A DNA stretch of 23,305 nt from a virus: IMG/VR virus record IMGVR_UViG_3300024326_000046, positions 1 through 23,305 of that record. One strand, written 5' to 3'. Of this stretch, positions 1 through 7,804 are shown piece by piece; position 1 is the first letter of the stretch; each line of letters opens with the position of its first letter. The translations under genes were made by a program, and so were the position numbers. The notes under the pieces were generated by a model that ran no database searches, had not been told where the DNA came from, and worked only from the letters and a program-made list of their open reading frames with translations.

Positions 1-3000
1 CACCTGACTGCTGCGCTTCATCAGAAAGTTTACTAAAATCCTGAAATGCTTTTGTCTCTGCTTCCTTTATATCTAAACCTTGTTTCTTATAAGTATTAAC
101 TCTATTACGATAAAAAGTAGCGCCACCTGAAGAAATAGCAATACTATCCGCTATTTGTGTTGGTGAAAAACCTATTTTCAACAAGTAAGCTATAATTGAA
201 CCTATTTTATCTTCCGTATTTTTAGCTGCATTAGCTATTTCAGATTCTTGCACATCAGATTTTAAACCACTTCTACGTTGTTTTAACTTATCAGAGTTAA
301 ATATCATAGCCCAATCTTTCCAGTATTGCGGCTGATTAGCAAAGGCTAACGCTGCTTTAGCTGGATTATTATCTGACCAATTTAAAAAGTTTGTAGCAGA
401 AGTTAACTGTAACAACGCTGATCTTCTGTTAAAAAACATTATCGTACCTATAGAGTTGTTAACCCACTTTAGCCACCTGTTTGTTATAACATCTCCGTTT
501 TGATTAGGGCTATTGCTACCTGTCTTCATAGCATATATAGCGTTTTCAATAGCAACCCTTGATGCTTTACCGTATAGAGCCTCTACTTTGTTTAAATTCT
601 TTTCGCTAAATATAATATCAACGTTTTCAATAAACTCCGCTAGGTACTCCTTTCTGTTTGTTTTTTCAGTTAAATTATTTAAATCACTTAAAGTTGTCTT
701 TGCTTCCCAGTATTCACCAGGTGCAGGCCATGTGTCTTGTTTGGAGACTAATAATAAAGCATCAGCAAAAGCACTAAGCTCAGGGTCGTTTGCAACAACG
801 TCGTTTAGTTTTTTGTTATCTCTTTTAGTAAGACCTGGTATTTCTATACCTGCCTTATTCCAAAGAAATACACGAACAGCGCCGTCATAAGTAAAATCAA
901 TACCTGGAACCAATTTGTTTAGTTTCTTTTTAACAGGTTTGAATATTTTGAAAAGAGCCTTAGTGTCGTTCTTTATAACCTCTCTAGCTGCTTCCAGCGC
1001 GGCAACACCTTTAAAATAAGGATCCATCAATGCTTCTTCAAAGAATTTTTGGTCAGCTTCACCTTGCTTGCCTTTTCCGGCAAACTTATATTGGGTTAAT
1101 CCTCTAAAGTCTTCAGCTGAAGGCGAAACAAATATTTTAAATTTACCAACTTTTTTACCTCTTCTTTGCGCTACACCTTTAGAAAACTCTTTAAAAGATT
1201 CTGTACCGGTTTGACGCTCAATCATATCATTAAAGCCTTTGTCTAATTTTTTACTAAATTTAACTTTAGCTTGCTGTACTTTACCTTTTACATCGAAAGT
1301 ATTAAATACATCTTTAACAGCTTTAACATTTCCTAAATGATCATCGGCAAAGTAAAAATCATTATAACCTTCAGATACTTTACCAACCATCCAGTCAGCT
1401 TTTGCTTTAGGGTTTCCATCAGCTAAACCAGTAATGTTTTCTAATGGAATATCTAAACCAAGTTCAGCTAAAAAATCCTGTATAGGACCCGCGGCGTCTT
1501 GAGGTCTAGCGGTTAAAACAAACAAATCATCAGTACCTCTTTTTTCTGCTATAATTTTAGCTACTTTTAATAAAGGACCTTCTTGACCATTCATAACTTT
1601 GCTAAACTCAATAAAATCAAAATCAGCACCTTTGGCAGCCATCTCGTCGCTTTTAGCAGCGAATTCAGCAGCCGTAAGTTTAGATTGTTCCTGTACTGTC
1701 TTCTTGTCAAATACTACAATGTTCTCAGTTTCTCTACCCTCATTTTTACCTTGACTAATATTAGTGTCTGTAAATCGTGCTGCTTTTATTCCTTTTCTTT
1801 TAAGCGCTACCGCTAATTTTTCAAGGTCTTTTTTAGAAAACGATTGCTCAAATCTAGGGTCAATAAGTTCATATAAACTAGATTCGTCTACTGCGTAGCC
1901 AGCTCTTGGCTTAATATCTAAACTATTGATAACATCAAACACTTGATCCTCTGTTGCAATAGAGGTTTCATCTATTTTAAAGCTACTAACCTCTCCTTGA
2001 TTACCTTTAGCATATGCAGCTGCTTGTTTTTGATCTTCTGAGAAATATACAAACCCATCAATGTCTTTAACTGATTTTATATCTCCACCGTGAAATACTC
2101 TAACTTCACCCGGCATTGTATATAATACATTACTTTTAGTCCTAGCTAAAGTATCATCAAAATCAAATACACGTATTTTTTTAGTTGACTTAGACCACTT
2201 GCTATTTTTAGCATTGTTTATAGCTTTTTGCTCTGTTTGCACAGACTTAGACATTTTGGCTGCTTGAGGTTTTAATATATTATTAAAATCAACCCAAGAC
2301 TTACCTATAATCTGACCTTTGTATTCTCCCGTGAGCGCTTCTATCGCATACATATTAGGAAACCCAAAAGTATTTTCATTGTAATACCTATCAAACTCAG
2401 GATCAGTCATAGGATCGAAAGCACTGTTCATTTGGGATTGAGTCAAAATATTAAAGTTATCATCCATACTGACTGGAATAATAGCAACATTATACTTGTC
2501 TCTTAAAGTGTTTAAATCAAACTTTTTACCATTAAAATAATAGTCGGTTAACTTTAAAACCATATACTCAGTAGGTATCATATGCTCATATCTAAGCGAT
2601 CCTTTTACGTCTCCAGTAAAATAATATTTTACAGGGGCTGCCGCTTTAAGAACGGAAGACATGTTTGACTTTAGGCTCATCATAGTCATAGTCCAGTCTA
2701 TTGCGTTTCCATTATCCCTTACATGCTGCAGGTAATCAGTTAAATACACCCACGCTTCTCTAGCGGCGTCTTCTCTTTCTTTAGCTTCTTTTTTAAACAG
2801 CTCTATACCTCCTGAAGCTTTTTGAGCAGGAGACTTTATTCTTTTTTTCCATTCCTCTATTGATTTGCCGTTAAATTTTACATCATTTATCCTGTTAGTT
2901 TTAGGATTCCAAACAACATCAACACCTGGGATATTATTTAAATTATTAGCTATATAATCACCATTACCAGCGTAAGATTGATTTCTACCACCTCCAATTT

Positions 3001-6000
3001 TACCTGAAGTTGCTTGATGCCCACGACCCCATCTTAGTATTTTAATTAAGCCATCAGCTCCTTCTTTTTCAACTAAATTATTATTATAAGTAAATTCTAA
3101 CTCTCTTTGCTTTGCTACTAGGTTATTATTATTAAATAATCCCCCTAATGATTTAACTTCATTTTTTGCAAAATTAAAAAATTTTATTAGATTGCTATTG
3201 CTTTCTTTTAAGGAAATACCTTCAAATAAAAACTTACCGAAATCAACATTTTTTGTTCTATCTATTGTTTTATCGCTTGTATATCTTTGAACAACCTGAA
3301 TACCTTCTTTTGCAAATTCTTTTAAAGTTTTTTCATCTATAGAAGGATATGTATCTATTAATATGGGTAAAAGACTTTTTGATGTTAAAGTCATGTTAGC
3401 ATTTAACAATTTATTTTTTAACTTTTCAGAGCCGTCTAAAACAGTTTTCTTTTGTTCTGCATTTAAAATTTTACTGAACTTAACCGTACCTCTTTCAACA
3501 TCTCTTGCAACTTCTTGTACATAGTTATCCACTAAAACAACACCCAAAGCCTCTTGATTACCTTCAAAAGCTTTTCTTATATCGCTATTTTCATTTTGTA
3601 ATTCGGTAGTAAATATATCAAAAGATAATTCTTCTGCCATAGCTTTAGCTAAAGACTCTTTACGGCCTCGTATAGGAGCCCCAGATTCGTCTACAACATA
3701 ACTTAAGTATGTTTTATCATCTAAGTTTTTAAATGCGTTAGGAAGTCTTCTAACGATCTCAGCTCCGGATGTTCTTCCAGCTTGCTGTGTCGATGTTTTT
3801 TCTCTATCAATCTTTTTACCCTGCCAATCCGAAGTAAAGCTACCATTAACTTGTTTTTGCACAGCTCCAGGCATCGCACCCATAAGCCAAGTTGTAGTCA
3901 TGTTTTCTAATATAGCTTTCTTATTTTTAATTAAGAATCTTTTTAATTGACCATCTTTTTTACCGCCCATTGCTTTTTTAAAGTCAATATCGGCTTGCTT
4001 ACCCATATTCTTTTTAATTTCAGCTACAAGAGGTGTTACAGTTTTGTTTATAGATACCTCAGTATCTAATTTAGACTTTAAAGTTCTTATTGTTCTAAGT
4101 ACTTTATCTTTTATAGTATTAACTGTTTCTGTAGGTAATGTATTGCTTTTTAATATATTTCTATACTTAGGTTTATCAGCTTTAGGTGCAGATGTTTCTT
4201 CAACTGCAACTTTTTCTGCGGCTTCTAACCCTTTAGTAATACCTTCTTTAACGTTTTTAATACCTAATCTTTCTGCTAAGTTGTTAGCTCTTAAGAAGGC
4301 TCTGTTTACTATAAACTTTTCAAGATCTTGCTTACCTGTAAATTCATCAAATACCATAGATTCAATATCAGAACGCATTGATTCTTGAAACATTTGTCTG
4401 CTAACATTCTTTTTAGCATCATCTGCTATAGGGTCATATAAGGCTTTGGTCCTATTAGTAACAACCCTGTCTACAACAGGCTTTATTTCTTGTAACACTT
4501 TATTTTCTAATCTTGTTTGCTTAGCACCTTTAACAAACTCTTTATTAAATTTTTTAGCTATAGTCTCACCTTCAGAGGCTAGTGTTTTTATTTCTGCCAC
4601 ATCAGACCTAAGTTGAGTGTCTTGCTCAGGTGTTAATTGCTTACTAAAAGTTTTCTTACTTCCTTCATCACTGACTTCTTGAGCTTTTTGCTCTTCTGTT
4701 TTTTCTCTTGCTTTTACTTCCCCCTTTGCAACCTTCAAGGCCAATCCTGATAATTCACCTTTATCGAAAGATCTAGCAAAACTGTTAATCAAAGCAAACA
4801 CGTCAGCACCTGTTTTTATAGAGGTAATTTCTTGGCCTTTATCTTTAGGGGCAATTTTATTCCATTTATTTAAAAGCTTACCTTGGAATGTCATATCCTT
4901 AGACAATTCAACTTGAGAAACATACTCAAGCATAGCTGCTAGTTTTTCCTCGGCTCTTACGATATCACTTACACCATCTCGATCCGCTATTTTATTAACT
5001 GCGTCAAACTTAGCTTTAGCTCCTTTAAATCTTTTGCCTACATAAGCTTCCATGTCAGCAACGATACCTAACGCATCGCCGTCCCCTTCCATTAAGGCTT
5101 TTAAAACTGTAGCATGCCCTGTCTCGTGTAAAACAGTAGCACCCATTTCGTTTTCTATAAGATTTTCTTCTAAACTTAAAGTAATAGGTAAGCCAAATTC
5201 AGCTCCAAAATATTGACCATTAATATCAGTAGCTTTAGTTTTACTGTCTACTTCTTCCTGTAGTTCTTTAAGAGTTACTTTTAATCCAGATTTTTGTTCT
5301 GGCGTAATTTTACCATCAGACGCAGCCGTGTCGATAATTAAATTAGCTTGCTTTATAGCTTCTTCTGGATTTTTTGCATTAACAATTTCAAAATTTAATC
5401 CTTCTTCTGCCGCTAATTGAATTTGTATTTTCTTTTGGTTTTCTTTAGCTTTAGAGTTTTGAGATGCTGCTAATGTTTTATTTTTATATTTTAAAGCGGA
5501 ATCAATTTTATTCTGAAGAGGTAAAATTAATCTTAATTTTGCATCTTCGGTTAACTTAGTATTGTTATTTATTTTATCAATACCTCTTTTACTTTTACTA
5601 ATAAAAATATCTAAATCCAGAAGTTGCCTTTTATCATTTTGACTCAACTCTTCGACCCTAGCCGCTGCTATACCGATGCCTAATATGTTTTGCTCAACTA
5701 ATCCATCTAATTCAAGCTGTAACGTAGATATCGCTTCTTGAGAGGATGCTTGATCAGCAATTCCTGTATTATTTTGAATTGTACTAATTTCTTTTCTAAT
5801 TCTGAGTATTTCTTTTCCTCTTTTAGTATACGCGTCTGCTTCAGATTCAGTTCTAAATGTATTAGCAATACCTCCAACCAAAGCAGGAGCGTTAAAGCCT
5901 AAACCAGACATAAGAGACCCCGTTACAAAAGCCTCGCTCAAACCGTCTGACCAGTTGATATCTTCTTTATTTAAAATATTTATATCTGTAAGATTGTTTA

Positions 6001-7804
6001 GAAGTTGAGCACTAAATTCTGCTCCACCTTCTTTTGCCATGTTTACTCCCCAGCTTTTAAAAGTATTTTGTAGTGCTTTGCTTTTGCTTATTACCTCAGC
6101 GGAATACTTTCCTGAAATGTTAAATGCTTTACCAAAATTCTTTTTTCCAAACCCTAAGTAGTTTAAAGCACCTTTTGCTTGACTTAAAGAAACTGTTTCA
6201 GTAAGATACTCTGCTGCTCCAAATAAAATACCTGATGCATAAAACTGCGCTGGAGATATTTTCCTTGTTGGATCGTTCGCTACCTCCATGTCCATCTCGT
6301 TAAACTTGTTTCCTCCTGCGGCTGCAGATACGGCTACCAACCCAGCGGGACCTAACCCCACGGTCGTAACAGTATTTACGGCTTGCTCTGAAAAAAGATC
6401 TAGCATGAATTCCCCAAAGTCTTCAATTCCTTTTATTTCACCTAATTCCTGTTTTGCTTTGGTGCTTTGATCTATTTTATCTGTAAGAGTATATAAATTA
6501 GATACAGTTTCTTCGAATTTTTCACTACCAAATACTCTATCATAAGCATCTACTGCTGGAATGTTTCTTAAATAAACCGGCAATCTACCTTCTCCATCTC
6601 TAATATCTACTCCTGTGGTTCTTTTTACTATTTGACTAATAGAAAGCTCTTTTGCAACACTTCCTAAACCTGCTATCATTCTAGAGCCAGCCGAGACCAT
6701 TCTATTGTTTACAACATCTAGGTTGTTATAAGTTCTTCTAGTAATGTCAGCCAGTCCAGCAGCGGTTTCAGCGCTACCTTCAAACTCTGCTAATTTATCA
6801 AATTCACTAGCGTATAATTCATAAGCTAATTTTTGATTCTGTATCAAAACTTTTCCTCTAGCAACGTCTTCTGTAGTTATACTTCCAGGAGTATCTGCTT
6901 GCTTTTTCTGTAAAGCATCTAGCTCTACTTTTCCTGCATTTAATAGTGTTTCGTAATTTGAAATACTAGTTATAGTTTTTTTGTAATTTTCTGATGCTTT
7001 TTTTCGATCAGCTTCAAAACTTTCAGTCAATATACCTCTACCGGCAATATATTTTATATCTTCTTTAGTAGGTGCAAGGTTTGTACCAGGAAGTCTGTTG
7101 GCTAATTTTTTAATTCTAGCAAAAGAAAACGGATTTGTTCCATAAACAGTTTCCTCATAGTCTTCTAGTATAGCTTCTTTTTTGTCGTCAAAAAGACTTT
7201 TTTCTCTACTTTTTACATATAATTTTTTTGCTCGCTCTCTCCACTCCTCTTCAGGAATATTATATATATCTACTTTAGTTTCAGTAGCAATTTCTTTTTT
7301 AGCTTCTTTAATAAATTCATCGTAAACGTAAGTCTCTTTCATAGTACCACCCGGCCCAGTGCCTTCGTATACTTTGACAGGAGGTCTATTAGAATCAACC
7401 TCTATAGCTTCCATTTCTTCAGCGGTTAAGCTTATTTCTTTTAGCTTAGTTCTTGCAGCTAATATGTCATCATCAAAAGAAGCTGCTCTCTCAAATTCGT
7501 CTTGAGTTACTACTTTATCATTTACTACAAATGGATCATCTGGCTGTGAATCCAAAGAAGTATCTACCGAAGGCGAACCCGTATCTTTTGGTTCCACATA
7601 TCCCGCTTGCGATGCTGTCATTGGTTGTTGTACTGCATCCGCATCCGCTACAGCACTTGTTGGAAAATCCGGTGTAGTATCATCAGATTTTAATGTAAAC
7701 CCTGCAGCTGCAGCATACTCTTCGATACTCATTTCTGCTTCCGTTGCATATTGTTGCATTTCTTCTACGCTAACTTCAGCACCGTTTGTTGAATTTATAT
7801 ACAT
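1..7804 (-). CDS. Giant polyvalent virion protein (metalloprotease-like, HAD and ART-like modules), 3' end outside window
   Basis: An uninterrupted frame of 2601 codons starts at ATG 7804 and is still open at the left edge. Seen: an acidic N-terminus; a hydrophobic, Gly/Ala-rich stretch at about residues 465-530 (e.g. GLGPAGLVAVSAAAGG); an HETGH zincin motif at 893-897 with a candidate third ligand in EEKLAAMLE (952-960); a HAD phosphatase core with FDFDDT (D1881, D1883), LTAR (T2098), K2135 and ADDH (D2154, D2155); and, between HAD motifs I and II, an ADP-ribosyltransferase-like segment (VFHGG with H1905, VYFSEDQKQAAAYA, ENIVVFD with E2027). A C-terminal block (about 2461-2600, with IADSIAISSGGATFYRNRV from 2551) looks like one I associate with large phage polyvalent proteins. 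Frame was checked at each motif. It lies 8 bases after the preceding gene. Position and size match T7 gp16-like ejection proteins, so packaging and injection into the host is inferred. Enzyme activities are untested. Confidence 0.9.
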   Translation of the reverse strand, partial: MYINSTNGAEVSVEEMQQYATEAEMSIEEYAAAAGFTLKSDDTTPDFPTSAVADADAVQQPMTASQAGYVEPKDTGSPSVDTSLDSQPDDPFVVNDKVVTQDEFERAASFDDDILAARTKLKEISLTAEEMEAIEVDSNRPPVKVYEGTGPGGTMKETYVYDEFIKEAKKEIATETKVDIYNIPEEEWRERAKKLYVKSREKSLFDDKKEAILEDYEETVYGTNPFSFARIKKLANRLPGTNLAPTKEDIKYIAGRGILTESFEADRKKASENYKKTITSISNYETLLNAGKVELDALQKKQADTPGSITTEDVARGKVLIQNQKLAYELYASEFDKLAEFEGSAETAAGLADITRRTYNNLDVVNNRMVSAGSRMIAGLGSVAKELSISQIVKRTTGVDIRDGEGRLPVYLRNIPAVDAYDRVFGSEKFEETVSNLYTLTDKIDQSTKAKQELGEIKGIEDFGEFMLDLFSEQAVNTVTTVGLGPAGLVAVSAAAGGNKFNEMDMEVANDPTRKISPAQFYASGILFGAAEYLTETVSLSQAKGALNYLGFGKKNFGKAFNISGKYSAEVISKSKALQNTFKSWGVNMAKEGGAEFSAQLLNNLTDINILNKEDINWSDGLSEAFVTGSLMSGLGFNAPALVGGIANTFRTESEADAYTKRGKEILRIRKEISTIQNNTGIADQASSQEAISTLQLELDGLVEQNILGIGIAAARVEELSQNDKRQLLDLDIFISKSKRGIDKINNNTKLTEDAKLRLILPLQNKIDSALKYKNKTLAASQNSKAKENQKKIQIQLAAEEGLNFEIVNAKNPEEAIKQANLIIDTAASDGKITPEQKSGLKVTLKELQEEVDSKTKATDINGQYFGAEFGLPITLSLEENLIENEMGATVLHETGHATVLKALMEGDGDALGIVADMEAYVGKRFKGAKAKFDAVNKIADRDGVSDIVRAEEKLAAMLEYVSQVELSKDMTFQGKLLNKWNKIAPKDKGQEITSIKTGADVFALINSFARSFDKGELSGLALKVAKGEVKAREKTEEQKAQEVSDEGSKKTFSKQLTPEQDTQLRSDVAEIKTLASEGETIAKKFNKEFVKGAKQTRLENKVLQEIKPVVDRVVTNRTKALYDPIADDAKKNVSRQMFQESMRSDIESMVFDEFTGKQDLEKFIVNRAFLRANNLAERLGIKNVKEGITKGLEAAEKVAVEETSAPKADKPKYRNILKSNTLPTETVNTIKDKVLRTIRTLKSKLDTEVSINKTVTPLVAEIKKNMGKQADIDFKKAMGGKKDGQLKRFLIKNKKAILENMTTTWLMGAMPGAVQKQVNGSFTSDWQGKKIDREKTSTQQAGRTSGAEIVRRLPNAFKNLDDKTYLSYVVDESGAPIRGRKESLAKAMAEELSFDIFTTELQNENSDIRKAFEGNQEALGVVLVDNYVQEVARDVERGTVKFSKILNAEQKKTVLDGSEKLKNKLLNANMTLTSKSLLPILIDTYPSIDEKTLKEFAKEGIQVVQRYTSDKTIDRTKNVDFGKFLFEGISLKESNSNLIKFFNFAKNEVKSLGGLFNNNNLVAKQRELEFTYNNNLVEKEGADGLIKILRWGRGHQATSGKIGGGRNQSYAGNGDYIANNLNNIPGVDVVWNPKTNRINDVKFNGKSIEEWKKRIKSPAQKASGGIELFKKEAKEREDAAREAWVYLTDYLQHVRDNGNAIDWTMTMMSLKSNMSSVLKAAAPVKYYFTGDVKGSLRYEHMIPTEYMVLKLTDYYFNGKKFDLNTLRDKYNVAIIPVSMDDNFNILTQSQMNSAFDPMTDPEFDRYYNENTFGFPNMYAIEALTGEYKGQIIGKSWVDFNNILKPQAAKMSKSVQTEQKAINNAKNSKWSKSTKKIRVFDFDDTLARTKSNVLYTMPGEVRVFHGGDIKSVKDIDGFVYFSEDQKQAAAYAKGNQGEVSSFKIDETSIATEDQVFDVINSLDIKPRAGYAVDESSLYELIDPRFEQSFSKKDLEKLAVALKRKGIKAARFTDTNISQGKNEGRETENIVVFDKKTVQEQSKLTAAEFAAKSDEMAAKGADFDFIEFSKVMNGQEGPLLKVAKIIAEKRGTDDLFVLTARPQDAAGPIQDFLAELGLDIPLENITGLADGNPKAKADWMVGKVSEGYNDFYFADDHLGNVKAVKDVFNTFDVKGKVQQAKVKFSKKLDKGFNDMIERQTGTESFKEFSKGVAQRRGKKVGKFKIFVSPSAEDFRGLTQYKFAGKGKQGEADQKFFEEALMDPYFKGVAALEAAREVIKNDTKALFKIFKPVKKKLNKLVPGIDFTYDGAVRVFLWNKAGIEIPGLTKRDNKKLNDVVANDPELSAFADALLLVSKQDTWPAPGEYWEAKTTLSDLNNLTEKTNRKEYLAEFIENVDIIFSEKNLNKVEALYGKASRVAIENAIYAMKTGSNSPNQNGDVITNRWLKWVNNSIGTIMFFNRRSALLQLTSATNFLNWSDNNPAKAALAFANQPQYWKDWAMIFNSDKLKQRRSGLKSDVQESEIANAAKNTEDKIGSIIAYLLKIGFSPTQIADSIAISSGGATFYRNRVNTYKKQGLDIKEAETKAFQDFSKLSDEAQQSG

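Follow-up and report, generated by a model that had tools for sequence, protein, structure and literature searches.

RESULTS

The giant gene and its source

The window, i.e. the whole stretch of DNA that was analysed, is the 23,305-base virus record IMGVR_UViG_3300024326_000046. It carries a gene for a giant protein in which a HAD phosphatase domain is interrupted by a module with a predicted ADP-ribosyltransferase (ART) fold, hereafter ART1 (nucleotide positions refer to the window, residue numbers to the giant protein):

2..7804, minus strand: giant polyvalent-type protein, an open frame of at least 2601 aa with its C-terminus cut by the window end
2111..2182, minus strand: HAD N-terminal piece, aa 1875-1898, with strand S1, motif I DxDxT (D1881, D1883) and the first flap strand NVLY (50-relative alignment; AlphaFold2 strands, model residues 17-21 and 34-37)
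1682..2110, minus strand: predicted ART-fold module ART1, aa 1899-2041 (143 residues), absent in uninserted relatives (AlphaFold2 and Foldseek, AcrIF11 and PARPs; PF18760, E = 1.5e-4)
2090..2092, minus strand: H1905 in ART strand 1 (FHGG), conserved within the window's clade but replaced by N, A or T elsewhere in ART1
1850..1873, minus strand: YELIDPRF, aa 1978-1985, the most conserved ART1 motif (22 diverse members)
1706..1726, minus strand: ENIVVFD, aa 2027-2033, predicted strand 5, with E2027 variable and D2033 largely conserved
1280..1681, minus strand: HAD C-terminal piece, aa 2042-2175, with the second flap strand SKL and motifs II (T2098), III (Lys) and IV (D2154, D2155) (alignment, AlphaFold2, phrog_415 match)

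The source of this DNA is a marine crAss-like phage. Virion genes of the crAss type are present, as indicated by a match to the crAss muzzle C-terminal domain in the window record (1.9e-9), by a capsid protein that is 44-49% identical to its counterparts in Maribacter phage Panino, Flavobacterium elemo phages and Cellulophaga phages, and by synteny, with a giant gene at the same end of the cluster in two named relatives. The virion gene cluster directly precedes the giant gene, and a portal protein, a capsid-type structural protein and further virion genes adjoin it on the same strand. Open frame and gene neighbourhood bear out a giant phage protein, here encoded next to virion genes; that it is itself a virion protein, as the initial annotation had it, would follow from gene position only.

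Along its whole length the giant protein is a mosaic when compared with its relatives, blocks of more than 90% identity lying beside blocks of about 20%. Residues 1101-1400, for example, are 92-98% identical to those of one relative (L002), to which many other blocks show 10-27% identity, and the C-terminal part past aa 2100 is 94-98% identical to that of another (L006). The same protein contains an HExxH motif (VLHETGHATV; window 5114-5128, minus strand; aa 893-897), a zincin-like metallopeptidase signature of the type described for polyvalent proteins. Phage-like giant proteins with a HAD of the window's type were also encountered in contigs that binning had assigned to Woesearchaeota, Aliivibrio, Ilumatobacteraceae and Flavobacteriaceae MAGs (L226-L232), which are probably mis-binned phage DNA. 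Protein searches of annotated phage records with the HAD-ART segment and with the whole giant protein returned no match at E 1e-3.

A HAD phosphatase domain interrupted in its flap

In the translated frame the motifs start at aa 1880 (FDFDDT), 1904 (FHGG), 2027 (ENIVVFD), 2042 (KLTAAEF), 2097 (LTARP) and 2150 (FYFADD), so that the residues singled out earlier (D1881/D1883, H1905, E2027 and T2098) are all placed exactly. The HAD sequence resumes past the insert and completes motifs III and IV, as had been claimed, with the Lys of KAKADW and D2154/D2155 in place. These residues, together with D1881/D1883/T1885 and T2098, are conserved over 50 relatives, and the Foldseek matches of a composite model (aa 1860-2180) include HAD phosphatases. 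At the sequence level the HAD motifs of the window are intact, and phosphohydrolase activity is predicted. The uninserted HAD matches phrog_415, named 'polynucleotide kinase', over its full length (E 3e-5), and the phrog_415 match in the window falls within the HAD C-terminal piece. Since the uninserted HAD matches this family over its full length, the HAD core is predicted to be a nucleic-acid-end or nucleotide phosphatase; the domain looks PNKP-like, its sequence identity to PNKP phosphatases being weak. Sequence searches of the PDB with the HAD-ART segment, the ART profile and the HAD profile gave chance matches only.

Relatives of the HAD-ART segment are encoded at 17 IMG/VR loci; a profile of the HAD without insert finds at least 481 stretches. 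Almost all relatives have a spacer of 72 residues between motifs I and II (73 in one case); in the window's subgroup it is 210 residues long, and proteins with other inserts have 256 or 274. The unusually long gap noticed in the initial annotation is thus real. Because 67 distinct uninserted sequences share the identical short spacing, the pattern is far from chance; a chance motif match was considered and rejected. Phage relatives that run from motif I directly into the resumed HAD, as the initial annotation had assumed, do exist: in place of the 143 residues of the window they have a 5-residue turn (DGTKG, in the context SNVLYTMP-DGTKG-KLDAAEFA). The alignment with these uninserted relatives, a comparison that had been proposed at the outset, upholds the clean domain insertion suggested there, and aa 1899-2041 are a true domain insertion.

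AlphaFold2 modelled the composite (aa 1860-2180, 50-row alignment) with a pLDDT of 91.5 and a pTM of 0.83, the latter only suggesting a defined orientation of HAD and insert. In this model the insert is flanked by flap strands at residues 34-37 and 182-184 and thus interrupts, at its middle, the flap beta-hairpin that follows motif I. This is the position of C1 caps, which are HAD caps inserted mid flap hairpin (PMC8069645), yet according to the model the insert is an independent enzyme fold and not a standard HAD cap.

The insert as a member of an ART family

Foldseek with the composite alone was uninformative on the insert, HAD matches dominating. Modelled alone, the insert reached a pLDDT of 87.4 and a pTM of 0.80, and its first-ranked match in the PDB was 6kyf (E 0.005), the anti-CRISPR ADP-ribosyltransferase AcrIF11 (PMC12421852). 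Ranks 2-33 were nearly all PARPs, with PARP2 and PARP1 chains at E 0.01-0.3, followed by exotoxin A domain III, PltA and KptA/Tpt1. These E-values are modest, 0.005 being the best, but the predicted structure of aa 1899-2041 has an ART-type fold, as the initial annotation had expected of this segment.

At the sequence level, 12 of 13 inserts find their best Pfam match in PF18760 (ART-PolyVal), but none reaches its curated cut-off of 31.2 bits. The insert of the window reaches 17.8 bits, or 16.7 bits at record scale (E 1.5e-4), and its match (1706-2107) is the only one to PF18760 in the window record. The comparison with ART-PolyVal proposed at the outset thus gives the best Pfam match, with a score that remains under the curated threshold.

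Less of the proposed active site could be retained. The reading of E2027 as catalytic is not supported, and an H-Y-E set as a whole is not secure, because E2027 and H1905 vary across ART1: already among inserts of about 60% identity (L184, L200, L203, L206) position 2027 varies between E, D, K, T and S, and more distant members have N, A or T in place of H1905. Given this variation in the presumed catalytic H and E, part of the ART1 family may lack activity or rely on different residues. Invariant in 22 diverse members are E1979, D1982, F1985, Y1931 and E1952, and Y1978, I1981 and R1984 are nearly so. The signature described for ART-PolyVal / Tox-ART-HYD2 consists of H in strand 1, Y in strand 2 and D in strand 5 (PMC5512222); the insert of the window has H1905, Y1920, Y1931 and D2033, the equivalence of D2033 being unproven and the H varying in other ART1 members. 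In AcrIF11 an acidic residue needed for activity, D115, sits in a loop (PMC12421852), and by analogy the essential acid of ART1 may lie in the YELIDxRF motif. NAD-dependent ADP-ribosyltransferase activity is predicted for the insert. In other parts of giant proteins ART1 is also found on its own, and a scan of bacterial genomes with the ART profile found no relative.

Other guests at the same flap point

Four relatives (L012, L013, L015 and L107) have a different insert of about 190 aa at the identical point. Its motifs YYHGTS, HYTKSLDNAKSF and EAVIPF are ART-like, and by these motifs alone it is assigned as a putative second ART-like module, ART2. ART1 and ART2 are kept separate because a comparison of their profiles gave no significant match. 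A P-loop kinase with an intact Walker A motif occupies the flap in further loci (L076, L102 and most of L137-L160); of the 24 kinase loci, 22 carry it nested exactly there. It matches AAA_33 (E 5e-16), zeta toxin (E 7e-13) and phrog_505, 'polynucleotide kinase'. The flap is therefore, by computation, a recurrent socket that is empty or holds ART1, ART2 or a polynucleotide/zeta-type P-loop kinase. Two viral matches of the composite model annotated as cytidyltransferase-like, and one annotated as UDP-GlcNAc kinase, hint at additional guests.

Several individual loci deserve mention. In L153 and L154 (around 4001-4612) the kinase lies in a giant protein without a surrounding HAD. L158 and L159 belong to one contig (IMGVR_UViG_3300025131_000066), which has genes for two distinct giant proteins on opposite strands; in both proteins a kinase is nested in the HAD. 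L182 (2965-3588, minus strand) has yet another flap insert, which adds about 25 residues and may be either a remnant or a small helical cap.

Exchange of modules between HAD backgrounds

Insert and surrounding HAD have different closest relatives. The HAD of the window is closest to that of the uninserted L006 (81% aa identity downstream), while L002 and L001 have the inserts most similar to its own. Between the window and L001 the insert is 88% identical in DNA and 92% in protein, as against 63% and 57% in the downstream flank. Similarly, the ART2 inserts of L012 and L107 are 93% (DNA) and 92% (aa) identical between flanks of 62% and 62%, and the HAD of L107 is 91% identical in aa sequence to that of the uninserted L058. 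Identity drops at the edges of the inserts. A tree of 98 downstream HAD halves, with the insert excluded and finer branching limited by the few columns, requires 21 switches from empty to filled or back (22 when all states are counted), of which at least 9 are forced by strongly supported branches; in this tree the window groups with two empty relatives at 98% support. Computation thus shows that the modules have repeatedly been gained, lost and exchanged among diverged HADs.

DISCUSSION

Polyvalent proteins are already known to contain ART domains and zeta-like kinases, and some polyvalent loci to have cassettes that recombine (PMC5512222). What is new is that the same flap point holds other modules, moved between diverged HADs; in the open-access papers searched we found no description of a HAD cap position that serves unrelated enzymes as a common socket and is refilled time and again. 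ART1 resembles ART-PolyVal / Tox-ART-HYD2 (PF18760; Iyer et al., 2017, PMC5512222) in being an ART-type domain of a giant multidomain phage protein and can be aligned over the strand 1-2 region with the prototype from Roseovarius podovirus 1, but the insert of the window falls under the family cut-off and is nested inside another catalytic domain, and in ART1 the H and the strand-5 residue are not conserved, the family having its own signature, YELIDxRF. AcrIF11 (PDB 6KYF), likewise phage-encoded and the closest solved fold, differs in being a small stand-alone protein with 12% identity to the insert and without a HAD partner. A likeness to PNKP-type end-healing enzymes is seen in the matches of the HAD to phrog_415 and of the relatives' nested kinase to phrog_505, both named polynucleotide kinase. 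In PNKPs the phosphatase and kinase domains are arranged in tandem, whereas the relatives described here carry the kinase inside the phosphatase flap, a place taken by an ART in the window. Finally, C1-capped HAD phosphatases (e.g. phosphoserine phosphatase, 1nnl) share the insertion in the middle of the flap hairpin, and HAD folds are the top matches of the composite; a guest of the window's type, by contrast, is predicted to be an independent enzyme fold, and it is swapped between close relatives.

An ordinary C1 cap that resembles ARTs by chance, the outcome that would have overturned the initial annotation, has the position of the insert in its favour but is very improbable, being contradicted by the absence of the insert from most close relatives, by fold matches to ARTs and not to HAD caps, and by the exchange of near-identical inserts between diverged HADs. 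A subtler version takes the insert to be an inactive ART fold that serves as a non-catalytic cap, shielding the HAD active site or setting its substrate range as C1 caps do (cap definition in PMC8069645). The flap-hairpin position, the variation of the presumed catalytic H and E and the short, different insert in L182 agree with this, but ART1 is also found free-standing outside the HAD, a kinase with an intact Walker A fills the same site, and H and YELIDxRF are kept in the window's clade, so that we regard a non-catalytic cap as distinctly unlikely.

Pure modular hitch-hiking, in which domains shuffle everywhere and the flap merely tolerates insertions with no functional coupling between HAD and guest, is a more serious contender, although we would place it short of even odds. 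It accords with the mosaicism of the giant protein over its whole length and with the presence of ART1 in other positions, but it does not readily account for unrelated modules all inserted at one exact point, or for the fact that kinase and phosphatase are a known functional pair.

Our main reading combines an ART-fold module in the flap socket of a PNKP-like HAD, as indicated by structure and evolution, with a two-headed effector. We assign this joint claim a probability of about 0.6, and a lower one to its substrates; activity, substrate, coupling and delivery are what we infer. The giant polyvalent effector would, as the initial annotation had already considered, enter the host along with the phage DNA. 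There the HAD core would dephosphorylate nucleotides or the ends of nucleic acids, and the module in the flap, beside the HAD mouth, would provide a second catalytic head. With a kinase as guest this would be a nested kinase-phosphatase, recalling PNKP end healing, while the ART version would ADP-ribosylate a host target, like AcrIF11 or T4 Alt, and protect incoming DNA or RNA. In its most far-reaching form, which is tentative and, as a whole, unlikely, the flap would be a dedicated catalytic socket: whole enzymes (ARTs, a polynucleotide-type kinase, perhaps a cytidylyltransferase) would be swapped into the cap position of an injected nucleic-acid phosphatase, and the guest would be a coupled active cap that modifies or processes RNA or DNA ends against host defence.

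HAD caps are normally viewed as slowly evolving lids that set substrate specificity. Against this view, the loci described here present one HAD cap position filled by unrelated enzyme folds that are exchanged among close relatives, and they provide natural pairs with and without a guest for testing the functional coupling of nested domains. Moreover, they point to an unexplored reservoir of early-infection effectors in the abundant marine crAss-like phages.
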